This document shows positions 5,656-58,241 of a stretch of 64,000 nucleotides of DNA, piece by piece. This stretch comes from Pegea sp. RAD2-039 (Eukaryota; Chordata; Thaliacea; Salpida; Salpidae). The stretch covers positions 372,001 through 436,000 of the forward strand of contig JAQGEQ010000090.1 in the NCBI GenBank assembly GCA_034620365.1. Direction: 5' to 3'. The first letter of the stretch is position 1. Every line of letters starts with the position of its first letter. Below the pieces are notes generated by a model. That model did no database searches and had not been told where the DNA came from. It saw only the letters and a list, made by a program, of their open reading frames with translations. A program made the position numbers and the translations under genes.

Positions 5656-8514
5656 TCATCTACTAGCATCTCGTTTTGGTCTCCAGCCATATATAAACTG
5701 AATAAGTTTATGTTGATGAAATATTGACATTTCAAAATGTACTTTCAGTATTTCTGATGTTAAAGTTAAAAGAAGTTTTCCGTCAACACATTCTTTTTGA
5801 AACGCTTCAATCAAATCTTCTTTCATTCCAATAAACCTGAAAAGAAAAAAGATGAAGTCTCACCATATTAAAAAGAGGTAGAATAACTTTAAAGATTCTG
5901 AAACTTCTTCTACAGACATCTGACGTATTTGTTGAAGATGAATATTTTCCTGAAATTAACTAAAATTAGTTGAAGACTAAAAAATAACAGATTTAAAAAA
6001 AAGTTTCATAAAAATAACAATTTATAAAATATTAATAAATAATAATTGTTTATATAAATAAAAAATATTTATAACAGTCATATAATAAATATAAATCAAA
6101 AAAAATTTATTATAATAATAATTATAAAACTGAATAATTATTTATAGCAATTTTTAAACAATCGTAAATTGATAAAATCTTGGAAAAGAAGATTATGAAT
6201 TTACTTGAGCGTTATTTTCCATTTTGACAATATTCAAACTGCTATCAGCTTTCAATGGTAAACCTTAAAAAAAAAATAAATAAAAAAATGTTTTAAAAAT
6301 GTAAAAAATTTAAAAGTAAAATAGAACTTACTATAAAGAATTTTTGAAGAAGAAATTTCCGTTTGATTATCAACATTAGAAGAAACTGAAAAAAAAAACA
6401 ATTAAAATAAATAAGTGAAAAAAAAATGCATGTCTCAAATACTTCCTGCTTCTTCATCTTTAACTAAGTAAATATTTTCATGTTCATCTTCCTGATCTTC
6501 ATCTATTTCATTAGTGATATTAAGAAGAGGTCTAGAGATCAGATCTTCAAGCTGAGGAGTCTCACTATCTTGTCTTCGTGGATTTTCTGCTCGAAACAAC
6601 ATCTCCATTTTCAAACAAACCAATTTGTAAATGAATTGGAAAAAAAGCAAAGAAAGGAAATGACGAAATCGCCACTAGTGGGCGCTCGCACCTTTTTGCC
6701 TGTTTCCTTGATACTCAGCAAAGATTGGCTCCTCATCAATCCGATTTCTGAAGAAGATTTTGTGATGATTGAATCAATTTTGCATCCTCACCTTTCAGTA
6801 TCAGATGTTGGGACAGGAGGAAGCGGTTTATCGACGTTTCGCGGTCTTCTCGTGGATGTTGGGACTGGAGGAGCGGTGATGTTGCGGGGAGGAAGAGGAG
6901 GACCCCCGCCAGAGTCTTCATTAACCACTGATTCAGATGTAAATTGAGATCGAAGTTTCGCGACTCGGATTCCGGTCGTGTTTACTGAGGCAGAACGATG
7001 CTGGTCTTCTCGAAGACGCTGGATAAGACTACTGGCCATTGGACGAGGTTTCGTGGGTCTGATAGAGCGTGGAAGATGAGTACGAACTGATCTGCGCGTA
7101 AAAGAAGCTGATGAAGACACAAGGGAAGATCTGAGGGTCCTACTGAAGATAGGAATCAATGTTGGAGTTGGAAGCGTCTGGAGAAGAACAGATCTCTTGG
7201 AAGAGAGCTTGGAGCTTTCGATCTTCGTTTTCATTCATCTATAAAGGTCAAAGGTGATTGGGGCACTCGATGATGACGTCATACTGACTTTGAGCTTAGT
7301 TACAGCGGTTGGAAGATGAAAGAAACTTAAAGAGGTTGAAAACTCGATAAATTTGTTTGAAGATGTTAATCCAAGAATAAAACGATGTCTTTCAGCCTTT
7401 AAAGAGCAAATTTAGAAGAAGAGGAAGATCTGTTGATGAAGATCTTACTCCAATGATCTTCAGACAGCTTCCTCCTTTAAGATGTACTTCATTGGAGTGA
7501 TAAGATGGAGTAGAAGTCCGATTATGCTTCACTACAACTGTACATGGAAAGTCGATGTTGTTGAGAAGTTCACATGCGTTCATGTCAGCATTCCTCTGAA
7601 GGAAGTTCATCTCTGTGGCGCTTCTAGTGGAAAATTGTGCCCTTGTGCTGTAGGGAAGACTAGAAAGAAGATGATAAGTCTCTTGATTAAAATATTTAGT
7701 AAAAAATTACCTGATGTTTATGTTCAAACGTTTACAGTAGACGTTTAGAACTCTTTTTTTGCTTAATATCCGTAACTGGTTTGTAGGTTTAAAGCGATTA
7801 CTCTGTTTCAGAAAAGTTTAAAGATTATTAAGATGATTTGTAAAAAGACCTTGGCAGCTTCTTCATTGTGACCAAGGATTGTAAATTCATCCCCAGCTTG
7901 TAAAATGATTTGATCTTCATTTGAACCATCTGGGCAAACAACTAAATTCTGTTGGATGAAGATACTAGGAGGTAGAAAAGAAGCAACTTCTTCTACAGAG
8001 CGAAAAGTCTGGGAAAGAGATCTTAGAAAAGAGTTTATGAAGATGAAGAAAGACTCACTTTAACTTGAAAGCCAGGACGTTCAAACTTTTCACTAATCTT
8101 GAAAGTGAAGTTACACCCTGTCGGAATTTCAATTTGCTTTCCGACCACATAATGTCCTGTTTCTATAGTTTGTGCAACAAGTCTGACAATTTCAATAAAT
8201 TGGTGAAAGTTTGTTGATATTTAAAAGGTCTTTACCTCGTTATACATTTTTTTCCATGTAGTAATACATAGACTGCATCAGAAACTTGGTAATCAGTTAT
8301 AGATTTACTAGATATCTTGGCAAGCTGTTAAAAATAGAAACTTTAAATCAATCTTTTAAAGAAATTATAAACAAAAAATGAATAAATCTTAAACAGTTTA
8401 TCAACCTTAATTACTCACAATTGGAAACCCAAACTTTTCTTCAATTTTTTCTATATTAAAACATTCTGTTGACCAGTTTAAAGCATCTAACCTATGAATT
8501 GTCTCTTCATCCAT
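5656..8514 (-). CDS. GAREM: GAREM-like CABIT and SAM domain adaptor
   Basis: GAREM proteins are cytoplasmic adaptors of receptor tyrosine kinase/MAPK signalling that recruit Grb2. Reading leftward, the N-terminal exons (8514 to about 7250) form a CABIT region with blocks shared with vertebrate GAREM1: GHYVVGKQIEIP, the SVEEVA stretch, AGDEFTILG, FSTRSATEM and a DFP-type motif near 7560. Exons at about 7235-6790 encode a Ser/Arg/Pro-rich linker with SH3-ligand motifs (PPLPPR, PPVP, PLPPVP). The last exons encode a SAM domain starting MSVEEVSESLKFIGM and ending QFIYGWRPKR, almost collinear with the GAREM1 C-terminus. ATG 8514 gives a start resembling the family N-terminus. The protein is shorter than vertebrate GAREM1, mostly in the linker, and I saw no clear YxN Grb2 SH2 site in the linker I read. 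Confidence 0.88.
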
Positions 8515-12326: not shown

Positions 12327-12510
12327 TTTACTCGTTGTGATTTAGGAAATCTTTTTTACCACTTTTATTTTTAACTTTTTTAAAGTGATAATTACCACAA
12401 TTGTAATAAAAATTTTTTTAATTTACTCGTTGTGATTTAGGAAATCTTTTTTACCACTTTTATTTTTAACTTTTTTAAAGTGATAATTACCACAATTGTA
12501 ATAAAAAATT
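12327..12510. repeat. 95-bp tandem duplication
   Basis: Two copies with a 95-base period, beginning TTTACTCGTTGTGATTTAGG, the second starting at 12422. They are almost identical, which suggests a recent duplication in spacer DNA about 400 bases upstream of the secreted-peptide gene. Confidence 0.85.
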
Positions 12511-12914
12511 TAGGAATACTACATCGATATAAGGGTTTTGTCATTTGCTAAAAAATTAACTTTCGATAAATTTAAACTTTATACAAACTAGTATTTAACT
12601 TGATTTTGATCAACAGCAATTTCACAAACAAAACAAAAAATGAATTTCATAACTGTAAACAATAAAACTTGCATCAATATTTTGAAAACAAACCTTACCT
12701 ATATAAAATGTTATATTGAATTAAGCTGACAGAGAAGGTTATCCTGGTTGCTTTTACTAATTTTTTTAATGTAGTTTCTTTTTATGCTACTTTGGAAAAT
12801 TTAGAACATTTTTAAATGAATAAAAACATACAATTTAATCAAAGTTTTAAACAGTCAGTAAATAACTTTACAAACAGATTTGCTTTTCAACAATTTTATT
12901 GATAGTTATTAAAT

Positions 12915-13804
12915 ATGGTTTCAAAGTCAGTTGTTTTGATAATTATCTTATATTTTTCTTTGCAATCTTTGGGTTATTGGTAAGTGTTCAGTTCAATACT
13001 TTTATAGATTTAAATTAATTTTTTTCATAAAGCTTATAAATAAATAAAAGTATTTTAATTTTATCTTACTTTTGCTTTCTTGATTAGTGAAAAAAATAGT
13101 TATAAGGGTGAACAGAAAAATATTTTAAGCAAGGTTAGTATAAGCAGAAATAATTTCGTGTTTTTTTATGAATATTTAGTAATTTAAGTATCAGTAAAAA
13201 CATCTTTAAGAATATTTATTAAATTTTCTAATTCTATTTGCAAAGATTTCCTTGAAAACAAAACTGACAGCCGCTAAAAAATTATTTCAAATTGTTAAAA
13301 TCGGAGTGAAAAATGCCGCAGTAAGTAAAAAACTAAAAAATATTTCAATGTTTTGATTCATCTAAACAAGCAAAGATAAAACGATAACTTTTGTAGAGAG
13401 TTATTTAAGAAATAAATTAGTTACCAAATCCCAAAAATCTTTATTGACTTTTGCATTGCAAACAGCTTTTGTTCTTAGATCGGTTCTAAGCAATTATCAA
13501 AACTTCTTATCAAAACTAGTTGTGAAAATAATCTATTTGATCTATATGACTCAAAATTTTTTATGATATTTGTACTAGAGCTCATACAATTTATAGAAGT
13601 TTTGTTTCGTATTGCTAGATATATATCTACAGCGATTAAATAAGCTTGTAATTAACTACAAGCCGATTACCGAATGATAGTCGCTTATACCATAGTTACA
13701 TTCAACACATTTACGTCAGCGGTAAAATAGTTTACTGTTTCAAGTATATCACAACATTTTGAAAATAAAAGTTTCAATTTCTGCAGGATTATGAAAAAGT
13801 TTAG
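12915..13804 (+). CDS. Small secreted cationic amphipathic peptide precursor
   Basis: Four exons (12915-12979, 13088-13133, 13246-13320, 13787-13804) join in phase to a 67-residue protein. All junctions have GT..AG signals: GTAAGT, GTTAGT and GTAAGT donors; TTAG, AAAG and TGCAG acceptors. Residues 1-20 are a typical signal peptide (Lys at 4, then a Val/Ile/Leu core, then SLQSLG). The rest has 11 Lys against 4 acidic residues. Exon 3 (25 codons) encodes a helix with hydrophobic residues at exon positions 3, 7, 10, 14, 17, 21 and 24 and Lys on the other face, followed by a five-residue acidic end. This is the layout of linear helical antimicrobial peptide precursors of animals. There is one Cys, at or next to the cleavage site. 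I recognise no homologue; a hormone or structural peptide is possible. A TATA-like box lies about 215 bases upstream. Confidence 0.6.
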
Positions 13805-14140
13805 AAGTGTCGAAATAGAAACTGAATCGCCAGCTGCAAACCGAAATTAAATTTGCTGTTCCTGTCATATTTTATTAACTTAAATTTCAAAGTGATCAAA
13901 TCACCTGTGTTTTTGATGATAAGAAGTAATAAAGAATACATGTAGCTATTGTCTAACATTGTATAAAAATCATAAATTATTTTTAAGATATTAATCACCT
14001 GTAACTATTTTTCAATAGCAAGTATTTCTAATAAATAATTTATAAACAGAAAAATTTTAAGATCAAGTAAACTTATGAAGTAACTTTTTGTAACAACTGT
14101 TAGTAACCTTTGAATTATAACTTGTCATGACTTACATCAG
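13805..14140. other. Spacer, no gene seen
   Basis: AT-rich 3' flank of the peptide gene. The only open frame, on the minus strand, is low-complexity and has no splice or homology support. Confidence 0.5.
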
Positions 14141-15114: not shown

Positions 15115-15621
15115 AAGGTTTTTCCAACTCTATCAGCAAATTTTTTCAAAATTTAGTTTAAAAAGTTATTCACAAATTTGTAGTCTGCTATTTTATTTTT
15201 ATTTATTTTAAAAACAAACTTTAAGCTTCTTCTTGAGAGTATTTATGTTATATGTTACAAGAGCTTAGAGCTTAGATCTTAATATCGATTTTCAGATTAT
15301 TTTTTTAAACTTTCCCATTAAAACAACGTTAAAATTTTAATCAAAATTATTTTTAATAATTATTTTGGGTTGACTTATTTACCAAACAAATAAAATTAAT
15401 ATTTTAATTCATCATTTTTTGTATGTTACTAAATAAATTATTTAATAGTTAGTAATAAAACTATTCATATAATAATTATTACATTTATTTAGTTATAATG
15501 TTATAATATCGCCAACATTGCCATTTCTAAACTGTGAATTTTTCTCTTTTACAATACTATGATTCTGTGCAATTCTTCACTGTCATATGCTTTTTCATTT
15601 ACACGTCAAATAGATCTAATT

Positions 15622-15840
15622 TATGAGAATGTGTGTTAGCGAGAGGTGCTCTCTTTAGGCACCCTCCTTCACATTTATTGTAATAAATAATAAATAATCA
15701 CTTTTAAAAGTTTGATAAAAATTTATTTCTGTTTTTGTTTTCAAGCAATATTTTATAAGTTTTTAAATTATTTATTTATTTCAATAAATGCGAAGGAGGG
15801 TATCTGAAAAGAGCACCTCTCGCTAACACACATTCTCATA
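15622..15840. mobile_element. MITE-like element with about 70-bp inverted repeats
   Basis: The left arm (from 15622, TATGAGAATGTGTGTTAGCG) and the reverse complement of the right arm (ending 15840) agree over about 70 bases with few mismatches, around an AT-rich core of about 80 bases. If the arms start at TGAGAAT, the flanks are TA and TA, the target duplication typical of Tc1/mariner-derived MITEs. Each arm also holds a small internal hairpin (GAGGTGC with GCACCCTC). There is no coding capacity, so mobility would depend on a transposase elsewhere. Two single-arm relatives lie at 16003 and 22623. Confidence 0.75.
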
Positions 15841-16002
15841 AATAAAATTTTAAATTACAAATTACGATTATACAACATTAAAAAGATCAAAACCCACTTT
15901 ATCTTATTAGAATACTAATATCATAAATTGAAACTGATTATATAAGAATTATAATTGAATAAAACTATTTAAAGTTTACAAAACTTTTTAAGTTACATAA
16001 TA

Positions 16003-16032
16003 GAGAATGTATGTTAGCGAGAGGTGCTCTTT
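16003..16032. mobile_element. Truncated arm of the MITE family
   Basis: A 30-base match to the arm of the 15622-15840 element (GAGAATGTATGTTAGCGAGA onward) with one substitution. It stops abruptly at an AAAT microsatellite. Confidence 0.65.
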
Positions 16033-18258
16033 AAATAAATAAATAAATACAATTTAACTTTATGATTAAGTCTTATGTTTAATATACAGCTAATAATACA
16101 AAAATATCTTATTTTCAACTCTTTTGCTTTATATTAAAACAACTTTTACACTTTTTTTAAATCCTAAATCCTAATTCAATATTTATTTCTGATCTTAATT
16201 GAGTTTGAAGTTACTAATTATTAAGTAATTAAACATTTAAGAAAGCTGTTCAGCAAACTTAAATAAACTTCAATTATAAATTTACGTAAATTATTTAAAA
16301 CCTTTTAAACACTTAAAAAGAAATTAAACTGATTTTAAGAACAGGAATAGATCAGAAGTAGTGAATTAGATTAATTTGAGACTTTATTGGAAAGAACATT
16401 TTGAAGTTTACCGTTTCAGCTTTGACAGTTTTTTTTAGTTTATTGTAACTAATATTTGATCAAATAAACTTATTTACAAATTATTAATTTATTCTGACGT
16501 ATATGCTACCCTATAATATTCAACATTTATTTCAAAACTATTACAAATAAATTATAACTTTAAAGACCAGTGTGCCCTGCATGGGTAGAATTCTGTGGTC
16601 TATGTTAGTTTTGAACAGGAGGGAGTGCTGATAAATTAAAGTCTGTACTACGCTAGCAGATGAGTATTTTATATAATTGAATAAAAGCATTTATAAAATT
16701 TCGATTTAAAAATATTTTGTTTCACAAAATAATTTTTTTAAATACTTGTAAAAAAAATAGAAAACTATATTTAAATTAATTTCTTTTTTAAGATATTATT
16801 TATTTCCAATATAATCTTGATTTGTAACTTCAGTTGACATTTTCTACAAAGAAAATGATATATATACTAAAATCAATAAGAGGTTATTTGTTTCTTTTTT
16901 CAAGTTATTACTAAACCATTTTCATATAAGATCTAATTTGATACTGAAAAATTATTCGCTTAAATCAATAATTAATCATCTTTTTACATTTGATAGAAAC
17001 AAATATTTCTAAAAACTGATTAAAAGAAGGTTGAAAGTAATTAGATATTTTTCTATGATGAATTTTAACAAAAACTCCAAACATGATTTTATTTTATTAA
17101 TTAGATTTTCTTATTTTTAAAATTGGGAATTTTTTTTAATACAATTTATCTTTTTAAATCTTCTTGTACTCCTATAAACAAATAAGATCTTATTTGTTCT
17201 TAAACCATCTGTAAATTGTTCAATAAATCTTTAATTTTTGTTATCTATTTCTAAACAAATTTTTTTCAACTCTGCTAATTATGATTTTCAAAAATCAAAT
17301 TCTATTTGTTTTGTACATTTAATGTTTTATTTATTTTAGTGATATTCAAACAACAAAGTAGTACAATATTAGTTAGCATTTGTATATGCAATTCATTAAA
17401 GTCCTAATGAAGTTGAATTTTTAAAAACTTCAAACTTTTGAAAGATATCTTCAAACACATGACACAAAAACACAGCAAAAAAAATAAAAGGTTTTTCAGA
17501 TAATAATTTGTTTCACTTAATTGATTAAGTTAATGAACATATCAAAAAAAATAATGTCAGATATCAATAAAGGATTATCCTCTAAATCCTGTTATAAGAG
17601 ATGGGAAAAAAACAAGATAATTTTTTTGACAGTATGAGAATCAAATAGCAGATTAGAATTCGGAGGTCAAAAAAATTGTTGAGATTTTATTTACATTTAT
17701 AAACTCTAAATAAACAAATTTGTAAATATTTTCAAAAACATCAAAATCTGATCCCAAATTAAATCCCAAATCTTCTTTTAAAAAAAACTCAAAATAAGAA
17801 AATAATTTTATAAATTGATTGAAGAAAATTAATAAATTTATCGAAATATTCAAATTAAATTTGAAAACTATCGATATTCAAACAACAACAAGATGACGTC
17901 ACATGTCATCGAAAACTCTTAATCAAGAATGACGTCATCACTTTATGATTTATTCAAAGATGAACAAATTCGGAACAGAAGCTCAGATGATGACGTCACT
18001 CAGCAAGCAATGTACAAAACTACATTTAAACGATGTTTTTGTGTATGTAACTAGAAAACAGATAAGAAAACTGGTTTGATGAACAAATCAATAAGAAGAC
18101 GAATAAATAAGAGTCAAAGTGTGTTCGTTGAACCGTAACAACCAAACAGACCACAATAGCAATTGTACAAAGTAGAGAAAGTATCGTTACCATGGTTGCA
18201 GACGCTTCGTTGACGATTGGAACAGATAAAAGGACTTCATGCAAACATTGAGATAGTG
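16033..18258. other. AT-rich spacer downstream of MARCHF gene
   Basis: Mostly very AT-rich. A GC-richer island at 16560-16670 has one open minus-strand frame but no matching splice sites. Segment 17880-18000 carries three TGACGTCA palindromes. The minus-strand frame at 18026-18244 is described separately. Confidence 0.5.
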
Positions 18259-18261: not shown

Positions 18262-20502
18262 GGCAGAGGGTAGCATCTCGACCAGGACAACACCTTCTTC
18301 ACGGTCATTAAGATGAGGATTAGAGGAGTTAGCTGTCTTCTGAGACACAATCATTCGTGCATCTGGAGACTCACGACTAGATGGAGCATCTTCTAGATGA
18401 AAGTGTTATCATGGAGACGAGATTATGACAGGATAGTTACCTGATGGTGATGTTGGTTGATGTTGAACGTAGATGATTCGATTAAATGATTTAAGTCTTC
18501 TCCATAATTGTACATAGATCTTTAAGTGATGAGGATCATTAAAAGATTCATTTAGGATCTCTCAACTTACTTTACATTGAACATACATAAACACCATTCC
18601 GCCAACAAAACCAATTGCAACCACCACCAGCTTCGTCCAAAAAGGCCAATGTAACTGATCTTCATGAAAAAATGAATAAAAGATGAAACAAAGAAGAAGA
18701 ACTCACTGCTCTGAAGCTCATCAGCTGTTCGCTCAATCAGAACATAAAGAGACCAAATGACACATGTGATGGCGACAAGATGAAAGATAACTGAACATAA
18801 GATCTTTCGCCTCTCGCTTGTAGACATCGAAAGTTTTTCCCACTGGAAAAAGAGGTGTTGGAGGAGGTTAATTAATGTGAAATTTCAAACAAACTTTTGA
18901 AAGAGGTTTTAACTTTGTGTCCATGGCAAAATGGAAACCACAAAGTTCACAATGCTTGCAATCTAAAAGAAAATATTTAATTGAAAAAAGTGTTCTTTTC
19001 ACTTAAAGGAAATTAAATGTTTTTTAAGGAAATCGCGAAATAAAAATGTTTTTGAATATCTTAAGCTCAAAGCAAAGCTATTCCACCGAAGAAAATATCG
19101 ATTTTTTTTGCTAGTTAATGTACACACAACAACAAATATTAGAAAATGAAAGTTCAGAGGTTTACATAACAGTTTTTAACCATCAAATTCCTACTCCAAT
19201 TAACATCAATATTTAGTTTGATTTCACCTGAGCTTTTTATCCACTGTTGTAAGCAAGACTGATGCACATTCTTCAAAGTTCCACGACATTTACAGGGCGC
19301 GATAAGGCGGCCCAAGTCGCTATCAGCTTCGCAGTGACAGATTCGGCAAAAGTCGACCTGACGAAAATAGTGGTTTATGTAGACACTCAAATCAGGGGAT
19401 GCTGGTCGTAACATTGTTAGATTATTTCAAATATTAAAAAGATTTCAGAAAATCAATTGAAATCTAAAAAAATAGATAAAAAAGCTTTGTGAAAAATCGA
19501 TAAAAAAGAAACAAGTTTTTAAAAGAAAGTCAAGCGCGGGTGACAGTAAAAAGACTTGCTCAATGACAATGTGATAAAAATATATAAAAGTTATGTAAGC
19601 GACTATATTAGTAAATAACTCCCCATATTTCACTGCTAGCTACAAAACAAGCTTCGGTTCAATTCGTAATTGGTTGAAGATTTCCAGCTGTTATTTCAAT
19701 TTAGACTAAATAAGAAACATGAAAGCAGAAATTTTGTGTAAAATCTAGTAGCTGGTCGAGAAAACGGTTAATAAAACTAAAAGCAAAAAGCTTTCTGAAA
19801 TAACTCATGAATAATTGAAGTAACGAACGGTACAGACATAGCTCTACAAAACGAACTAAAGATTAAGTCTGCAGCATATAAACATTCTAACTTGCATCTC
19901 GTTTCGGTATTAACAAACTAGATTTAAAGAAACAACATTTGCTTGTCAACTGACAAAAGTATTGCAACATAGCATCAGTGAACCGATCACGTGATTACAG
20001 ATGATGATAAGTAACTTACAATGGAAGAGCTTGCGATAGAAACTCCACTGGTGCTAATTTTCATTAAATTTTCTTCCTCACAAGCTTTGTTCAAACCTTT
20101 TCCTGCTTCACAACATCTTACAACCTGTCCACAATTTTCACATGTATTCGAACGTTTGCCATGACAACTCTGAGATAGTGATTCGTCGATGACGTCATCT
20201 GGGTTTTTCCCAGATTCAGAAGAATGATCAAAGACGAGTAGCTTGACCCCGTCACCACTGACGACACCATCCAACGTGGTTTCAGCGATAGGAGTGGATT
20301 TCTGAAAAAATAAGTGGCTTGTTAATGAGGTGGAGATATATCCATGTTAACTGGTCACCTTCTCAGAGATAATAGTGAAATTGCAAGCAGTTTTATCGGT
20401 TGAAGAAGCCAGTAAAGGAGTAACAAGTTTAGTAGATGCTAAATCCATATTATAATTCAAGTTTATTTTATTTTCTTGAAATTTTTCATCATTTAATTGC
20501 AT
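18259..20502 (-). CDS. MARCHF8: MARCHF1/8-like membrane RING-CH E3 ubiquitin ligase
   Basis: MARCHF1/8 are two-helix membrane ligases of endosomes and plasma membrane that ubiquitinate other membrane proteins for lysosomal sorting. Reading leftward: N-terminal exons (20502 to about 20030) encode a Ser/Thr-rich region with an extra Cys cluster ([11 protein letters not shown]). The RING-CH follows with all C4HC3 ligands: [25 protein letters not shown], then HCELCGF in a separate exon at about 18960. Next come [13 protein letters not shown], helix 1 ([20 protein letters not shown]), [20 protein letters not shown] for helix 2, and [18 protein letters not shown]. These blocks are nearly identical to vertebrate MARCHF8. 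The tail is short and ends at TGA 18261-18259. Start ATG 20502 is the first in the open 5' exon. MARCHF1 and MARCHF8 cannot be told apart here. Confidence 0.88.
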
Positions 20503-34382: not shown

Positions 34383-35282
34383 TCAATAACCAGTTTTCAA
34401 AAACTCATAGATGGTCATTTTATTGTCCTTGCTAATACTTGTAGACTGGTCCGTCCACCCCAAGGGCACATGGTGCTCAGAAGCAACTAGTTTTTCACAG
34501 TTGCTGGTCAAATTACTGATTTGTTTGCTAAAAACGATAAAGAAAATACTAAAAAGTAGTAAATTGACACAAAATAAGATGCAACCTAATATTCGTGTTA
34601 TTTGATCAGTATATCTGTAAAAAAAAAGTTAGTTTAGTAGAAGACCTAATATTTAATCAACTAACTTGCTGGCACAGTCAGAAGCTTGTGTCTTATTGAT
34701 GGAGCATAACTTCTGATCTATCTAATATTGAGAAGAAATAAAGAAAATACAAAAACAAAATCAACTGAATACCTTGAAGTTCATTCCCAGCTTGCAAAAC
34801 ATAAACACTTTAATATTCATGATTCTGTCATGTCTGAATTTGTTGTCTTCAGAAGTTTTTGAGTTTATCAAATTAGAGTGTTTAAAGAGAGCTGCATTCT
34901 TTAAATGATCTAAACTGATGAAGATATGATTAAATATTCATTCTACTGCTAACTGTAACTTACTAATTAATTATCATCAGATTTTTAGAAAGTCTTTTTA
35001 AATTCTTTATTCTTCTATTAACTTTTCGAGTTTTCTCAATTGACAACTTGGAAACGATGACGTCATCAAAAAGACCTGTAAACTGAATTGATAATTTTAG
35101 CATCAAAGTGAATGAAACACACCTAAAAAGGGTAATGTGAAGTTCAGAAGAGGACAATCAACCCTAAGCTCTTCAGTTAATAGTTTCTTGATGAGTTTAC
35201 AACTCGGTGGCAAGCTTTGGAGTTTTGATGACACAATTGATGTCGCCATTAAACTGATAGTTAAAATCAATAACCGCTTCAT
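34383..35282 (-). CDS. Orphan single-pass type I membrane protein
   Basis: Five exons join in phase on the minus strand. The protein starts with a signal peptide (MKRLLILTISLMATSIVSS), followed by a helical, Lys-rich ectodomain of about 145 residues with several Cys, one transmembrane helix (ILGCILFCVNLLLFSIFFIV) and a short cytoplasmic tail ending EFLKTGY. Junctions: GTGTGT donor to TTTACAG; GTAAGT to CATCAG; GTATTC to ATATTAG; GTTAGT to TTTACAG. An ATG 24 bases upstream (35306) is also possible. I know no homologue. The overall plan resembles membrane-anchored helical ligands, but this is only an impression from layout. Confidence 0.5.
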
Positions 35283-47900: not shown

Positions 47901-50900
47901 TGTCCTGACCAAGATGGAGACGACCCAAGACCGCAACTAGTCAGTTATCTTTCAGTTGATGACCGCTTTCATCTTCAGCTGTTGTCATCTTAATCATAAT
48001 TATTTCTACTCATTCGCCATCGATGACGTCATCACACAAGTTAAACATCTCGACTTTTTTCACGTCCAGGCGCAGAAAAAGATGGGGACTGTAATGGGAG
48101 TATATCTGCCCTGTGTCCAGAATATCTTAGGGGTCATTCTGTTTGTCCGTTTGACTTGGATTGTTGGTCTAGCTGGCATCTTGCAATCTTTATTCATCGT
48201 AATCCTTTGTTGTTCAACTGTTAGTTTTCAATCTCTCCCTACTGCCTCTAGTGACTCATATGCTCCCAGACGCTTTTGACCGCGATTTCGATGAGCGCAA
48301 TCGCGACTAATGGCGTTGTACCAGCTGGAGGCTCTTATTTTATGATATCTCGAGCGTTGGGACCTGAATTTGGAGGTGCTGTTGGCGTCCTCTTTTATTT
48401 GGGGACCACATTTGCTTCAGCTATGTACATTTTAGGAGCAGTCGAAATTTTAGTGGTAAGTCTGTCTTCAAATCGCTCTTTTGACGCGATTTCTCAAATC
48501 TTCATCCCCAGACCTACATCGCGCCTCAGATTCGTCTCTTTGGTGACATCACAGGACCATCAAATCGCGCGAACCTTCTAAACAACTTCCGGGTCTACGG
48601 TTCCTGCTTCCTGGTCCTTATGTCTTCACTTGTCTTCTTCGGAGTCAAATACGTCAATCGCTTCGCGTCGCTCTTCCTCGCTTGCGTCATCGTCTCCATC
48701 CTCGCCATCTTTGCCGGTGTCCTCAAATCAGCGGTCTCTCCTCCCGCGCAACAGTGATTATGACGTCACAAATCACGCGACCGCCGACTAAATACTTCAT
48801 TTACAGACTCTGTTACCTGGGCGACCGACTTATCGAGTTTGGAAGCGATGGATTATGCGCGAAAGGCAACTTGGTAACCAAGCAACCGACCCTAGTAACC
48901 AATCGGTTACTGATATTGTTATACAGACTTACCCGAGTAGCATCGACCAGATTTATTGTTACGCGAACGAAACCTTCGATTTAAACTCAACTGAACCTCG
49001 TTGTGATACTTACTTCACGAGCAACCAGTTGCAGACCATCTTAGCTATCCCTGGACTTGGTTCCAACGTCTCATCTGGTACCATATAACCACAAACTGGT
49101 CCACAACTAACCTGTCCACTTTTCAAGTCAATTTTGGGTCAAGTTATATGACCAAGAACGAACTGATCACCGCGAAAGGCGTTGATGACGTAGACGCCCT
49201 ACAGCCCGATGCAGACTTCCGGCCCAGTCCCAACTACCCGTCGTGGCTGTACGCGGACATCACGTCCAGTTTCACCATCCTTCTTGCTATCTTCTTTCCA
49301 TCTGTCACTGGTTAGTATCTGTGACGTCATCAACATCTCTGACGTCATCATCATCTGTGACGTCATTGTTTTAGGCATCATGGCGGGATCTAATCGATCA
49401 GGAGATCTCGCTGACGCTCAAAGATCGATTCCAACTGGGACTATTGGTGCCGTTCTCACCACTGCATTTATTTGTCAGTGACGTCATCACGCGATAGTTC
49501 CGCTTCACTGACTTCTCGACTTTTCGCAGATATCTCTACTGTTGTGTTCTTCGGCGCTTGCGTAGAAGGCTCGTTGCTACGCGACAAGTAAGTACCCCAC
49601 CCTACCTCTTCGTCATCTAACTGGTTGCCTGGCAACAGGTTCGGGGACTCGATCGGCGGCGAGTTGATTGTGTCGTTACTTGCGTGGCCCAGTAAATGGA
49701 TTGTTCTGATTGGTGCTTTCTTGTCCACCATCGGTGCTGGACTTCAGTCACTAGTGGGCGCCCCACGCCTGTTGCAAGCGATTGCCAAAGACGGGATTAT
49801 CCCGTTTCTGAAGGTGCCCCTGAAATATCACGCCCCATTTAGTCTACGATAGTTTTTTAGGTGTTTGGAAAGGGTAAAGAAGCAAATGGTGACCCGACGT
49901 GGGCACTTCTTCTCACTGTATTCATCTCGTTGATCGGAATCCTCATCGCTGACTTGGAGCTTGTTGCTCCAATTATCACCATGTAAGTCACGTGATCCTC
50001 ATCATCTGATCTTCATCATCTGATCCTCATCACTTGATCTTCATCATTTGATCTTCATCATTTGATCTTCATCACTTGATCTTCATCACTTGATCCTCAT
50101 CATCTGATCTTCATCATTTGATCCTCATCATCTGATCTTCATCACTTGATCCTCATCACTTGATCCTCATCACTTGATCTTCATCACTTGATCCTCATCA
50201 CTTGATCCTCATCACTTGATCTTCATCACGTGATCCTCATCATCTGATCTTCATCATTTGATCTTCATCACTTGATCCTCATCACTTGATCCTCATCACT
50301 TGATCCTCATCACTTGATCTTCATCACGTGATCCTCATCATCTGATCCTCATCATCTGATCTTCATCACTTGATCCTCATCACTTGATCTTCATCATCTG
50401 ATCCTCATCACTTGATCCTCATCATCTGATCTTCATCACTTGATCTTCATCACTTGATCTTCATCACTTGATCCTCATCACTTGATCCTCATCATCTGAT
50501 CCTCATCACTTGATCCTCATCACTTGATCTTCATCATTTGATCTTCATCATCTGATCCTCATCACTTGATCCTCATCACTTGATCCTCATCACTTGATCC
50601 TCATCACTTGATCTTCATCATCTGATCTTCATCACTTGATCCTCATCACTTGATCTTCATCACTTGATCCTCATCACTTGATCCTCATCACTTGATCCTC
50701 ATCACTTGATCTTCATCACTTGATCCTCATCATCTGATCTTCATCACTTGATCCTCATCACTTGATCCTCATCATCTGATCCTCATCACTTGATCCTCAT
50801 CACTTGATCCTCATCATCTGATCTTCATCACTTGATCCTCATCATTTGATCTTCATCACTTGATCTTCATCACTTGATCTTCATCACTTGATCTTCATCA

Positions 50901-53900
50901 TCTGATCTTCATCACTTGATCTTCATCATTTGATCTTCATCATCTGATCCTCATCATCTGATCTTCATCACTTGATCCTCATCATCTGATCCTCATCACT
51001 TGATCCTCATCACTTGATCTTCATCACTTGATCTTCATCATCTGATCCTCATCACGTGATCCTCATCATCTGATCTTCATCATTTGATCTTCATCATCTG
51101 ATCCTCATCACTTGATCCTCATCACTTGATCTTCATCACTTGATCTTCATCATTTGATCTTCATCATCTGATCTTCATCATCTGATCCTCATCATCTGAT
51201 CCTCATCACGTGATCCTCATCATCTGATCTTCATCATTTGATCTTCATCATCTGATCCTCATCACTTGATCCTCATCACTTGATCTTCATCACTTGATCT
51301 TCATCATTTGATCTTCATCATCTGATCCTCATCATCTGATCCTCATCACGTGATCCTCATCATCTGATCTTCATCATTTGATCTTCATCATCTGATCCTC
51401 ATCACTTGATCCTCATCACTTGATCTTCATCACTTGATCTTCATCATTTGATCCTCATCATCTGATCTTCATCACTTGATCCTCATCACTTGATCTTCAT
51501 CATCTGATCCTCATCACTTGATCCTCATCATCTGATCTTCATCACTTGATCTTCATCACTTGATCTTCATCACTTGATCCTCATCACTTGATCCTCATCA
51601 TCTGATCCTCATCACTTGATCCTCATCACTTGATCTTCATCATTTGATCTTCATCATCTGATCCTCATCACTTGATCCTCATCACTTGATCCTCATCACT
51701 TGATCCTCATCACTTGATCTTCATCATCTGATCTTCATCACTTGATCCTCATCACTTGATCTTCATCACTTGATCCTCATCACTTGATCCTCATCACTTG
51801 ATCCTCATCACTTGATCTTCATCACTTGATCCTCATCATCTGATCTTCATCACTTGATCCTCATCACTTGATCCTCATCATCTGATCCTCATCACTTGAT
51901 CCTCATCACTTGATCCTCATCATCTGATCTTCATCACTTGATCCTCATCATTTGATCTTCATCACTTGATCTTCATCACTTGATCTTCATCACTTGATCT
52001 TCATCATCTGATCTTCATCACTTGATCTTCATCATTTGATCTTCATCATCTGATCCTCATCATCTGATCTTCATCACTTGATCCTCATCATCTGATCCTC
52101 ATCACTTGATCCTCATCACTTGATCTTCATCACTTGATCTTCATCATCTGATCCTCATCACGTGATCCTCATCATCTGATCTTCATCATTTGATCTTCAT
52201 CATCTGATCCTCATCACTTGATCCTCATCACTTGATCTTCATCACTTGATCTTCATCATTTGATCTTCATCATCTGATCTTCATCATCTGATCCTCATCA
52301 TCTGATCCTCATCACGTGATCCTCATCATCTGATCTTCATCATTTGATCTTCATCATCTGATCCTCATCACTTGATCCTCATCACTTGATCTTCATCACT
52401 TGATCTTCATCATTTGATCTTCATCATCTGATCCTCATCATCTGATCCTCATCACGTGATCCTCATCATCTGATCTTCATCATTTGATCTTCATCATCTG
52501 ATCCTCATCACTTGATCCTCATCACTTGATCTTCATCACTTGATCTTCATCATTTGATCTTCATCATCTGATCCTCATCATCTGATCCTCATCACTTGAT
52601 CCTCATCATCTGATCTTCATAACCTGATCCTCATCACTTCTTCCTCATCATCTGATCTTCATCACTTGATCTTCATCACTTGATCCTCATCACTTGATCC
52701 TCATCATCTGATCTTCATCACTTGATCCTCATCACTTGATCCTCATCACTTGATCTTCATCATCTGATCTTCATCATTTGATCCTCATCATCTGATCCTC
52801 ATCACTTGATCTTCATCACTTGATCCTCATCACTTGATCCTCATCACTTGATCCTCATCACTTGATCCTCATCACTTCTTCCTCATCATCTGATCTTCAT
52901 CATTTTATCTTCATCATCTGATCCTCATCACTTGATCCTCATCACTTGATCCTCATCACTTCTTCCTCATCACTTGATCTTCATCATCTGATCTTCATCA
53001 TTTGATCTTCATCATCTGATCCTCATCACTTGATCCTCATCACTTGATCTTCATCACTTGATCTTCATCACTTGATCCTCATCACTTGATCTTCATCACT
53101 TGATCCTCATCACTTGATCCTCATCACTTGATCCTCATCACTTGATCCTCATCATCTGATCTTCATCACTTGATCCTCATCATTTGATCTTCATCACTTG
53201 ATCCTCATCACTTGATCCTCATCATCTTTATCTTTTTAGGTTCTTTCTCATGTGTTACGCATTTGTAAATGTTGCCTGTGCTCTTCAAACTCTGCTACAA
53301 ACTCCTGGTTGGCGCCCCAGATTCAAATACTACCACTGGTTAGTGTCCTTCTCTATTTAGTGACCTTTAATGACCAGTTGTTCACAAACAGGGTCCTGTC
53401 TTCCATTGGATTAGGTCTTTGTGTGGCTCTGATGTTCATTTCTAGTTGGGTCTACACTTTACTCGCTTTGTTGCTTGCTGCTTCGATTCATAAATACATC
53501 GAATATTCGGGGTGAGTCGCGCTGATGACGTCACTTGCTGATGATGTCACTGCTTGTAGAGCCGAGAAGGAATGGGGTGATGGACTTCGAGGACTTCAAC
53601 TGACCACCGCTCGATACGCCCTTCTTCGATTAGAAGAGCGCGCGCCCCATACTAAAAACTGGAGGTTGGTGGCGATTGTTTTGACTCTCTACTGACATCT
53701 AGTGGTGATTTGTAGACCTCAATTGTTGATCCTCGTCAAACCGGATGAAGATCTGATGCCAAAACATCCAAATATGTTTGATCTTGCTGATCAATTGAAA
53801 GCGGGCAAGGGACTTACTATTGTTAGCTCGGTGTTGCCTGGCAACCCAGTCGATATCTACCCTGAATCAAACCGTTGTCAAGAGGTGAGGATGACTCGAA

Positions 53901-56900
53901 GATATTCTAGTGAAGTGACTCGAGTATCTTAGGAACTACGTCAAGTTCTGGAGGAGCGTAAGATGAAAGGCTTCGCGCGTTCGATTGTTTGTCCTGACGT
54001 CAGTGACGGACTCAACGCGCTTATTCAGTCATCAGGACTCGGCGGGTTACGTCATAATACGATTATGATGGGTTGGCCCTATCGATGGAGATCAAAAGAA
54101 CAAGGCTACGACGTCTTTCTCAGTTAGTCGCGTTGTTCCGCTTCGATGCACACGTCGCGTTGTTCCACATCATTGCACATCTCATTGCTGACTTGTTGCA
54201 GATACTATCAAGACTGCATCAGCTTTTAATCATGCTGTCATTGTACCGAAGAATATTATGAACTTTCCAAGTCGAACTGACCGCTTACATGGTACTATAG
54301 ATGTCTGGTGGATTGTCCATGATGGTGGTCTACTTATGTTACTACCCTTTCTGCTTCGACAACATAAAGTTGGTGACCACTGTCCCTGTCCACTAACTTA
54401 CTCGTCTACTTTTGTAGTCATGGAAACAATGTACAATGAGAATATTTACTGTAGCTCAATTAGAAGATAACAGCATCCAATTAAAGAAAGATCTTGAGAA
54501 TTTTCTGTATCAGTTACGTATTGAAGCTGAGATAGAAGTTATTGAGATGGTTAGTATCTTCCTGATCTTCAATGTCTCTTCATCATCTGTTTGTTGCAGC
54601 AAACCTCTGATATATCTGCTTATACTTATGAAAGAACTTTGTTAATGGAGCAAAGGTCTGAAATTTTGAACCAGTTGAATTTGACCAAACAAAAACTAGA
54701 TGTAAGTGTCCACTTGTCCATTCAGTGTCCACCAACTTGCTTGTTTACAGTTCTCTACCTTTGGATCAAAGCCTCATAAAACAAGATTAGAAATTGGGAA
54801 TACTTCAATTAATAGTTCGGATAATGAAATGACATGGATGCCGGAAACAAGAGCAAAACTTGATGACATTACAGCATCGTTGGCAAATAATCTGACAGAA
54901 ACTGAAAAGTTAAACAAAAATCGATCAGCTGCTACAGTGAATATCGAAAAAGAAGAAATAAATAAAGATATAAACAATCAACTAAGAGACTCTAAAAGTG
55001 ATCCAAGTTTTGGGAATCTCAACAATATTGTTCCGTGAGTTGAAATTTCATCAATTAGTTCATCTGTTTGCTTGTTCATCTGTTTGCTTGTTCATCTGTT
55101 TACTTGTTCATCTGTTTGCTTGTTCATCTGTTTGCTTGTTCATCTGTTTACTTGTTCATCTGTTTGCTTGTTCATCTGTTTACTTGTTCATCTGTTTGCT
55201 TGTCCATCTGTTTGCTTGTTCATCTGTTTACTTGTTCATCTGTTTGCTTGTTCATCTGTTTGCTTGTTCATCTGTTTGCTTGTTCATCTGTTTACTTGTT
55301 CATCTGTTTACTTGTTCATCTGTTTGCTTGTTCATCTGTTTGCTTGTTCATCTGTTTGCTTGTTCATCTGTTTACTTGTTCATCTGTTTACTTGTTCATC
55401 TGTTTGCTTGTTCATCTGTTTGCTTGTTCATCTGTTTGCTTGTCCATATGTTTGATTGTTCATCTGTTTGCTTGTTCATCTGTTTGCTTGTTCATCTGTT
55501 TACTTGTCCATATGTTTGATTGTTCATCTGTTTGCTTGTTCATCTGTTTGCTTGTTCATCTGTTTACTTGTCCATCTGTTTGCTTGTTCATCTGTTTGCT
55601 TGTTCATCTGTTTACTTGTCCATCTGTTTGCTTGATCATCTGTTTACTTGTTCATCTACTTGTCCATCTGTTTGCTTGATCATCTGTTTACTTGTTCATC
55701 TGTTTGCTTGTTCATCTGTGTTCATCTGTTTGCTTGTTCATCTGTTTATCTTGTTCATCTGTTTGCTTGTTCATTTGTTTGTTCATCTGTTTACTTGTCC
55801 ATCTGTTTGCTTGTTCATCTGTTTACTTGTTCATCTGTTTGCTTGTTCATCTGTTTACTTGTTCATCTGTTTACTTGTTCATCTGTTTATCTGTGTTCAT
55901 CTGTTTACTTGTTCATTGTTCTTGTTCATCTGTTTGTCTTGTTCATCTGTTTGTTCATTGTTCATCTGTTTGTTCATCTGTTCATCTGTTTACTTGTTCA
56001 TCTGTTTACTTGTTCATCTGTTTGACTTGTTCATCTGTTTACTTGTTCATCTGTTTACTTGTTCATCTGTTTGTTCTTGTTCATCTGTTTACTTGTTCAT
56101 CTGTTTGCTTGTTCATCTGTTTGCTTGTTCATCTTGTTCATCTGTTTACTTGTTCATCTGTTTGCTTGTTCATCTGTTTACTTGTTCATCTGTTTGCTTG
56201 TTCTTCTGTTTGCTTGTTCATCTGTTTACTTGTTCATCTGTTTACTTGTTCATCTACTTGTCCATCTGTTTGCTTGTTAATCTGTTTGCTTGATAATCTG
56301 TTTGCTTGTTCATCTGTTTGCTTGTTCATCTGTTTACTTGTTCATCTGTTTACTTGTTCATCTGTTTACTTGTTCATCTGTTTACTTGTTCATCTGTTTA
56401 CTTGTTCATCTACTTGTCCATCTGTTTGCTTGTTCATCTGTTTGCTTGTTCATCTGTTTGCTTGTTCATCTGTTTGCTTGTTCATCTGTTTGATTCTGTT
56501 CATCTGTTTGCTTGTTCATCTGTTTACTTGTTCATCTGTTTGCTTGTTCATCTGTTTACTTGTTCATCTGTTTGCTTGTTCATCTGTTTACTTGTTCATC
56601 TGTTCTGTTTGCTTGTTCATCTGTTTGCTTGTTCATCTGTTTGCTTGTTCATCTGTGTTCATCTGTTTACTTGTTCATCTGTTTACTTGTTCATCTGTTT
56701 ACTTGTTCATCTGTTTGCTTGTTCATCTGTTTGCTTGTTCATCTGTTTGCTTGTTCATCTGTTTGCTTGTTCATCTGTTTACTTGTTCATCTGTTTACTT
56801 GTTCATCTGTTTGCTTGTTCATCTGTTTACTTGTTCATCTGTTTGCTTGTTCATCTGTTTGCTTGTTCATCTGTTTATTGTTCATCTGTTTACTTGTTCA

Positions 56901-58241
56901 TCTGTTCTGTTTACTTGTTCATCTGTTTACTTGTTCATCTGTTTACTTGTCCATCTGTTTGCTTGTTCATCTGTTTGCTTGTTTGCTTGTTCATCTGTTT
57001 ACTTGTCCATCTGTTTGCTTGTTCATCTGTTTGCTTGTTCATCTGTTTACTTGTTCTGCTTGTTCATCTGTTTGCTTGTTCATCTGTTTACTTGTTCATC
57101 TGTTTGCTTGTTCATCTGTTTGCTTGTCCATCTGTTTGCTTGTTCATCTGTTTGCTTGTTCATCTGTTTGCTTGTTCATCTGTTTACTTGTTCATCTGTT
57201 TGCTTGTTCATCTGTTTACTTGTTCATCTGTTTGCTTGTTCATCTGTTTGCTTGTTCATCTGTTTGCTTGTTCATCTGTTTGCTTGTTCATCTGTTTACT
57301 TGTTCATCTGTTTGCTTGTCCATCTGTTTACTTGTCCATCTGTTTGCTTGTTCATCTGTTTGCTTGTTCATCTGTTTGCTTGTTCATATGTTTGCTTGTT
57401 CATCTGTTTACTTGTTCATCTGTTTGCTTGTTCATCTGTTTGCTTGTTCATCTGTTTGCTTGTTCATCTGTTTGCTTGTTCATCTGTTTGCTTGTTCATC
57501 TGTTTGCTTGTTCATCTGTTTACTTGTTCATCTGTTTGCTTGTTCATCTGTTTGCTTGTCCATCTGTTTGCTTGTTCATCTGTTTGCTTGTTCGTATGTT
57601 TACTTGTTCATCTGTTTGCTTGTCCATCTGTTTGCTTGTTCATCTGTTTGCTTGTTCATCTGTTTGCTTGTTCATCTGTTTACTTGTTCATCTGTTTGCT
57701 TGTTCATCTGTTTACTTGTTCATCTGTTTGCTTGTTCATCTGTTTGCTTGTTCATCTGTTTGCTTGTTCATCTGTTTGCTTGTTCATCTGTTTACTTGTT
57801 CATCTGTTTGCTTGTCCATCTGTTTACTTGTCCATCTGTTTGCTTGTTCATCTGTTTGCTTGTTCATCTGTTTGCTTGTTCATCTGTTTGCATGTTCATA
57901 TGTTTACTTGTTCATCTGCTAGCTTGTTTATGTGCTTGTTAATTCTTTTTTTCTGTTTCTAGGAAATCTAATAACGTAAGACGGATGCATACAGCTGTTA
58001 AACTGAACGAGACGATTGTGAATCGTTCACATCAAGCTCAACTCGTTATTTTGAATCTACCAGGCCCTCCTAAGAAGAAAGAAGCAAGTCGAGAAGCTAA
58101 TTGTAAATTATTTCTAACTTTGAACAACTCTTCAACAAGTTGTTTGTAGATATGGAGTTTTTGGAAGTCCTTACTGAAGGTTTAGACCGTGTTATGATGG
58201 TCAGGGGCGGTGGTCGTGAAGTTATCACCATGTACTCTTGA
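44937..58241 (+). CDS. SLC12A: Electroneutral K-Cl cotransporter (KCC)
   Basis: KCCs export K+ and Cl- together across the plasma membrane and set cell volume and intracellular chloride. First exons: ATG 44937 (contains VRFVVTS) plus one at about 45556; alternative ATG 46568 plus an exon at about 46820 (contains RFKV). The common part runs [64 protein letters not shown], a Cys-containing glycosylated loop at 48800-49200, [38 protein letters not shown], then the cytoplasmic domain with [34 protein letters not shown]-type and [15 protein letters not shown]. It ends [22 protein letters not shown] and [11 protein letters not shown]. The HTAV Thr matches the WNK-SPAK inhibitory site (Thr1048 in human KCC3). 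Two introns are filled by 3-kb minisatellites; most others are tiny. KCC subtype cannot be assigned. Confidence 0.93.
46568..46864 (+). CDS. Alternative 5' exons of KCC
   Basis: ATG 46568 opens a 26-codon exon ending at a GTGAGT donor. The next exon (TTTTTTAG acceptor near 46819) completes an Arg codon and reads [17 protein letters not shown]. The stretch DDYENLDG resembles the N-terminus of vertebrate KCC1 (GDYDNLEG). This set lies downstream of the 44937 set, so it most likely marks a second promoter. Confidence 0.6.
49989..53231. repeat. 14-bp minisatellite filling a KCC intron
   Basis: About 230 copies of a 14-base unit GATCYTCATCAYYT, in register throughout, occupy nearly all of the 3,257-base intron 49983-53239. 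Its ends are a GTAAGT donor completing the codon for Met and a TTTTTAG acceptor before FFLMCYAF. No AG occurs in the array on the sense strand. Higher-order copies exist (1,106 bp = 79 units; also 154 and 140 bp). A few units carry CACGTGATC. Confidence 0.97.
55059..57920. repeat. 16-bp minisatellite filling a KCC intron
   Basis: Roughly 175 copies of a 16-base unit TTCATCTGTTTRCTTG, with small deletions at 55700-57050, fill the 2,928-base intron 55035-57962, which runs from a GTGAGT donor after an Asn-rich exon to a TTTCTAG acceptor before [10 protein letters not shown]. The unit has no stop in any forward frame, so very long meaningless frames (up to 756 codons, repeating [16 protein letters not shown]) arise. 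No AG occurs until CTAGC at 57919, close to the acceptor. Confidence 0.97.

Follow-up and report, generated by a model that had tools for sequence, protein, structure and literature searches.

Tunicates are a recognised source of linear cationic helical antimicrobial peptides (LCAMPs), which are made in haemocytes. The closest described systems are those of Ciona, in which Ci-MAM-A, Ci-PAP-A and the candidates of Ohtsuka and Inagaki (2020; PMC7387483) have precursors 50-100 residues long that combine a signal peptide with a cationic helix. As described in that paper, 252 of the 1,949 Ciona proteins of 50-100 residues were predicted to be secretory, and an 18-residue segment was screened with limits of 0-0.6 for hydrophobicity, 0.1-1.0 for hydrophobic moment and +3 to +10 for charge. 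SignalP was used along with predictors of transmembrane segments, helix (PROTEUS), aggregation and localisation, and sequences displaying a Cys past the signal peptide were excluded. An anionic helical C-terminal region was present in 17 of the 22 Ciona candidates and is thus usual, not required; cleavage before D and DD is reported in the same paper for styelins and clavanins. Styelins and botryllin (PMC9966394), as well as clavanins, are also cationic helical peptides derived from signal-peptide precursors, and dicynthaurin and halocidin, from Halocynthia, are described as helical peptides linked by one disulfide (PMC10608444).

The window considered here is a stretch of 64,000 nucleotides from Pegea sp. 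RAD2-039 (contig JAQGEQ010000090.1, positions 372,001-436,000, forward strand), where the original prediction had placed a hidden four-exon gene for an antimicrobial-type peptide. Like the Ciona LCAMPs of PMC7387483, the candidate belongs to a tunicate, has a precursor of 50-100 residues (67 here) and a signal-peptide-like start; its cationic segment lies within the limits of that screen for hydrophobicity, moment and charge, and an acidic residue closes the helix. It differs from them by a Cys at residue 22, kept if the signal peptide is cut after Gly20, by the lack of an anionic helical proregion, and in that no genome relative sharing its signal peptide was found. A cut after Gly20 would leave a single mature Cys as in dicynthaurin and halocidin (PMC10608444); this likeness is one of description, as is that to styelins and clavanins. 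The precursor of botryllin is 158 residues long (PMC9966394) against 67 in the candidate.

Gene model

Four exons of 65, 46, 75 and 18 bases, all on the plus strand, join in phase across GT..AG borders into 204 bases encoding the 67-residue precursor MVSKSVVLIIILYFSLQSLGYCEKNSYKGEQKNILSKISLKTKLTAAKKLFQIVKIGVKNAADYEKV plus a stop codon, and the join originally described could be reproduced exactly. Putative exon 1 (12915-12979) holds the start codon and a predicted signal peptide (residues 1-21 and two bases of codon 22) and ends at the donor ATTG/gtaagt (8.8 bits). Putative exon 2 (13088-13133), which completes the split codon 22 and encodes the hydrophilic spacer CEKNSYKGEQKNILSK, lies between the acceptor cttgattag (4.8 bits) and the donor CAAG/gttagt (9.8 bits). 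The 25-residue Lys-rich segment ISLKTKLTAAKKLFQIVKIGVKNAA, a predicted helix, is encoded by putative exon 3 (13246-13320; acceptor 5.1 bits, donor 6.9 bits), and DYEKV with the stop codon by the less certain putative exon 4 (13787-13804; acceptor tttctgcag/G, 5.5 bits). The three introns, all with GT..AG borders, are 108, 112 and 466 bases long; they start with gtaagt, gttagt and gtaagt and end with gattag, gcaaag and ctgcag, respectively.

Exons 1-3 are well determined and exon 4 is not. An alternative last exon at 13633-13677, which overlaps a dispersed repeat, scores equally (a total of 40.9 against 40.8 bits), and read-through of exon 3 yields a 73-residue version of the precursor. When a consensus-word rule is applied, fourteen candidate fourth exons fit, 13787-13804 among them, in addition to the read-through. 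Such latitude favors a chance reading, to which we assign a probability somewhat below even, in which short open pieces of AT-rich intergenic DNA have been joined and no product is made. DNA of this nature abounds in codons for Lys, Ile, Leu, Phe and Asn, in hydrophobic starts and in GT/AG sites, and anyone at liberty to choose among the pieces will arrive at a Lys-rich, secreted peptide of helical appearance. A C-terminus left unfixed by the sequence, whether through read-through or another last exon, also agrees with a real gene of different product or role, such as a hormone-like or structural secreted peptide, a differently ended protein or a noncoding transcript; good splice sites need no coding role. 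This last explanation is judged highly improbable.

The flanking signals are of little help. An AATAAA 3' of the stop (13928-13933, plus strand) is weak evidence because 10 such words occur within the 1.9 kb of AT-rich DNA examined, and TATATAAA 5' of the start codon (12700-12707, plus strand), a possible TATA box, likewise adds little to the case for a gene. An acceptor-like site of 4.5 bits is located 9 bases 5' of the ATG and could, speculatively, serve a 5' intron or leader trans-splicing. A promoter scan with a bacterial pattern scored below the shuffled mean and was given no weight.

Precursor and predicted peptide

The precursor contains 12 Lys, 11 of them past the signal peptide, and four acidic residues (three Glu and one Asp), in agreement with the counts first given for the Lys-rich body. 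A signal peptide is predicted by a simple rule, with Lys4, a hydrophobic core of mean 3.44 and small residues at -3/-1 for cleavage after Gly20 or Cys22; Cys22 would be kept in the mature peptide in the former case and lost in the latter.

In the 25-residue segment of exon 3, seven hydrophobic residues follow a 3-4-3-4 spacing matched by 2.8% of 20,000 shuffles, and the helical hydrophobic moment amounts to 0.205, a value reached by 42.8% of 5,000 shuffles. The strict spacing attributed earlier to this helix is present as a seven-step ladder and is only mildly unusual, and the moment is ordinary for the composition. The contiguous reading of exon 3 (13246-13353, 36 residues including the read-through end) was submitted to AlphaFold2 with no alignment and was modelled as a helix from residue 3 to 34, with a mean pLDDT of 83 in the best model and 72-77 in the other four. 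Past Gly20, 23 of the 30 18-residue windows fall within the numeric helix limits of the Ciona screen; the script used reproduces the values given in PMC7387483 for three of the peptides of that paper. Only DYEKV follows the helix, and the precursor has no anionic helical C-terminal region. Upon inspection it lacks both a Gly-Lys/Arg amidation site and repeated peptide units, which argues against a hormone-like or other product; the one Lys-Lys pair within the helix could be a processing site and speaks in favor of it.

Splice sites

The splice matrices were derived from 19 introns of this genome: 12 from myosin genes, 5 from homeobox genes and 2 from the KCC-type cation-chloride cotransporter gene of the window. 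One GT..AG junction keeping the profile position was found in 14 of the 23 adjacent myosin exon pairs, two in one pair and none in eight, and the 14 introns were reduced to 12 once near-identical paralogue pairs had been dropped. Five of the nine homeobox introns seen were used and four, for which the full donor sequence was not at hand, were omitted.

With matrices from only these 19 introns, the six splice sites of the candidate total 40.8 bits. Triples resampled from real sites, each scored by leave-one-out, show a median of 30.8; the value of 40.8 is reached by 10% of them. Reversed real DNA, amounting to 319,737 bases (the window and the sampled loci, minus five loci overlapping the candidate), contains 10 signal-peptide models that exceed 30.8 and none that exceeds 40.8. 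That all six sites are jointly real-like and that the reversed bases give no model at this score both count against the chance reading. In 263,678 unreversed bases of sampled loci, three models above 40.8 were found, each of them in a myosin locus that had been used to build the matrices. The window itself holds two further loci above 40.8 on the minus strand, 5807-6921 and 34598-35282, and a minus-strand model at 38.2 (18351-18827) adjoins a RING-variant exon (19154-19426). In view of such high scorers in real DNA, high scores often denote real splice sites and not always real small genes. The multi-exon model at 34598-35282 has a splice total of 44.8, higher than that of the candidate, and a clear signal peptide beginning with MKRLLILTISLMATSIVSSKLQSLPPSCK; it may represent a small secreted protein.

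Chance rate of comparable models

Markov DNA with the composition of the window, arrays removed, was searched for three-intron models that encode 50-100 residues, begin with a signal peptide and have introns 40-600 bases long; every donor had to score 4 bits or more, every acceptor 1 bit or more and the six sites together 40.8 or more. Rates are expressed per 58 kb. The signal-peptide models amounted to 0.13 in an initial run of 60 simulations, to 0.086 in 1,500 order-3 and 0.103 in 600 order-4 simulations, and to 0.078 (248 models) in a further 3,200 order-3 simulations. When a net charge of +5 or more was required together with a cationic helical segment, the rate fell to 0.011 (order 3) and 0.013 (order 4), with 35 models in the further 3,200 simulations. 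Four models were left in these 3,200 when a signal core hydrophobicity matching that of the candidate was also required, and none when its GC contrast was required on top, which again argues against chance.

With consensus-word rules in place of the matrices, 0.25% of 400 windows contained models uniting signal peptide, charge and helix. Three looser settings, applied to 150 windows, raised or lowered this share to 1.3%, 0% and 6.7%; with the looser donor rule of the 6.7% setting, signal-peptide models were present in 21% of the 150 simulated windows. These frequencies, together with the 0.078-0.103 signal-peptide models of equal splice total per 58 kb, favor the chance reading, as does the post hoc fitting of the criteria: they were set after the candidate had been seen and therefore overstate significance and flatter the candidate. 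Overall, the candidate exceeds chance moderately. A prior of about 0.13 small secreted genes per 58 kb was derived from the Ciona counts reported in PMC7387483 and a genome size for Ciona; weighed against this prior, the evidence comes out close to even. Secreted small genes with exactly three introns and such good sites should be rare, and low chance rates therefore still compete with a real gene.

Coding character

The codon usage of the 67 codons scores -0.058 nats per codon. Noncoding composites have a mean of -0.134 (sd 0.099) and 22.5% of 3,000 lie at or above the candidate; real coding pieces have a mean of 0.150 (sd 0.110) and 3 of 60 lie at or below it, all three from a hydrophobic GOST-domain gene of the same window. 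The statistic favors noncoding DNA by an estimated ratio of about 5:1 and thereby supports the chance reading. Synonymous codon choice alone gives no separation from noncoding DNA, 54.8% of the composites scoring as high.

The contrast between exons and introns leans the other way and resembles that of real introns, which is a point against chance. The G+C content of exons 1-3 exceeds that of introns 1-2 by 9.8 points, a difference matched by about 6% of chance models. The joint GC and A/T contrast over the three introns favors the pattern of 13 real introns over chance by about 2:1, and both contrast values are reached by 1.4% of 209 chance models with a site sum of at least 38. The codon and contrast measures overlap. 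An outright artefact, as the codon statistic would suggest, was considered and set aside because the GOST-domain pieces score as low and the splice and contrast tests point in the other direction. The hidden gene originally announced is thus backed by its splice sites and exon/intron contrast and opposed by its codon statistics, and its reality is near even.

Search for relatives

The genome, 105.7 Mb in 387 contigs, was searched with the whole precursor, carrying one extra Trp past the signal peptide (three candidates offered), and with the exact mature part (two); both queries matched only the candidate locus, and no paralogue was found. A DNA search, in which 40 of 145 candidates were scored, listed nothing beyond the candidate locus and copies of a dispersed repeat located in intron 3, and no allele-like second copy was seen. 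The precursor matched no Pfam family, no relative was found in prokaryote genomes, and the PDB sequences contained none, the best E-values being 0.07 and 1.8. From their names, we take these two matches to be designed repeat proteins. None of four peptide pieces was found in the literature text searched, and no fitting small secreted or orphan tunicate peptide was identified by title. Similarity to the seven Ciona peptides given in Table 3 of PMC7387483 was in no case above shuffles, and for one Ci-MAM and one Ci-PAP peptide 837 and 445 of 1,000 shuffles, respectively, scored as high. The earlier statement that no homologue was recognised accordingly holds for the genome itself, Pfam, PDB sequences and prokaryote genomes, and this lack of relatives is one more point on the side of chance.

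A longer conserved protein using another frame was looked for as well. Ten open frames over or beside the exons, drawn from the 26 of at least 30 codons around the locus, were scanned and none matched at the Pfam cut-off, which weighs against a different product. The best was a sub-threshold match to COG5_C (E 0.013) in a 66-codon open frame inside intron 3 (13366-13566).

Genomic surroundings

The dispersed repeat of intron 3 (13655-13753, plus strand) matched 39 other places among the 40 of 145 candidates that were scored. The copies listed show 76-92% identity to the matched part. Of the seven that were aligned, most have one end in common near ATATATCACA, and the element is SINE- or MITE-like. 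One locus with a copy (L007, C6:3043096-3046207) also holds a model for a Cys-rich short secreted peptide, MNTKVIIVLVAVCFVALSQGCHQG..., with a splice total of 39.2.

Other repeats are present in the window. A 95-bp unit is repeated 1.9 times with 98% matches at 12327-12511, some 400 bases 5' of the start of the candidate, and a MITE-like inverted repeat at 15614-15848 has 82-nt arms, 88% complementary and 71 nt apart, with one end copied at 15986-16032. Two minisatellite arrays are located at 49988-53224 (14 bp, 231 copies) and 55058-57928 (16 bp, 181 copies); as judged by eye, the former sits between exons of the KCC-type cotransporter gene, of which the exon at 48255-48581 was the one searched, and the latter after the gene. 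TGACGTCA words recur in short tandem arrays and near genes (17890-18000, 49317-49366, 53521-53551 and 60365-60400).

Elsewhere in the genome, contigs C75, C21, C160 and C265 carry many clustered protein kinase frames, mostly of about 300-460 residues, with no stop within the match and apparently intronless. Also present in the genome is a cellulose synthase with a glycosyl hydrolase family 6 (GH6) domain behind it, an arrangement that among animals is not known outside the tunicates; one GH6 match, obtained in a search of the genome, reaches 27.5 bits for a cut-off of 27. In the locus around this match (L074), Glyco_trans_2_3 (62.6 bits), Cellulose_synt (31.3) and Glyco_hydro_6 (35.0) are each matched by an open frame of their own, the C-terminal part of the latter scoring 21.9 bits, below the cut-off. 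One posterior Hox homeodomain is similar to Hox-B13 at 80.1 bits, and a chain whose name refers to two engrailed domains scores 83.4 with it; a second such homeodomain on the same contig matches the same chain at 80.2 bits and has Hox-A9 as its best natural match (63.6 bits). The homeobox genes and, above all, the cellulose synthase with its GH6 domain make a tunicate host very likely; COX1 gave no match. Other homeobox genes of the genome are presumably Hox1, Xlox and Cdx, the names given to them here.

Proposed function and significance

A short four-exon tunicate gene for a secreted, Lys-rich helical peptide is a reading that we place just short of an even chance. In such a gene, exon 1 would provide the signal peptide and exon 2 the hydrophilic spacer; the cationic helix would lie wholly in exon 3, and exon 4 would add five residues starting with Asp. 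On the secretory path the precursor would lose its signal peptide, cut after either Gly20 or Cys22. A cut before Asp63, as reported for styelins and clavanins before D or DD, could then free the helix, which would bind and disturb microbial membranes. As a speculation, two chains could be paired through Cys22, if it is kept, in the manner of dicynthaurin. The open spliced frame, the quality of its splice sites and its composition are seen in the sequence, the signal peptide and the helix are predicted, and we infer that the gene is transcribed and spliced and that its product is processed and acts on membranes in host defence.

The innate-immune antimicrobial role first proposed agrees with the production of such peptides by tunicate haemocytes. 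It was drawn from composition only, and an amphipathicity no better than that of shuffles, the absence of an anionic proregion, the presence of a Cys and the failure to find a relative in the sequences searched all weigh against it. A membrane-active role in host defence would be fairly probable provided that the gene is real and is therefore rather unlikely overall. A more far-reaching version, a lineage-specific, unannotated orphan antimicrobial peptide unrelated to the known ascidian families, with one exon per precursor part and possibly a disulfide dimer joined through the single Cys, appears very doubtful.

From a methodological point of view, splice-joined micro-exons in AT-rich DNA readily persuade the eye, and a calibrated chance rate, here around 1 in 10 windows when a signal peptide is asked for and 1 in 100 when all the features are, shows how much trust they are due when no RNA is at hand. 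Gene finders may miss a gene of this kind because its exons are only 18-75 bases long. If real, the candidate would be one more peptide of an already known tunicate kind, the linear cationic helical one, and would enlarge the defence repertoire of the invertebrates most closely related to vertebrates.
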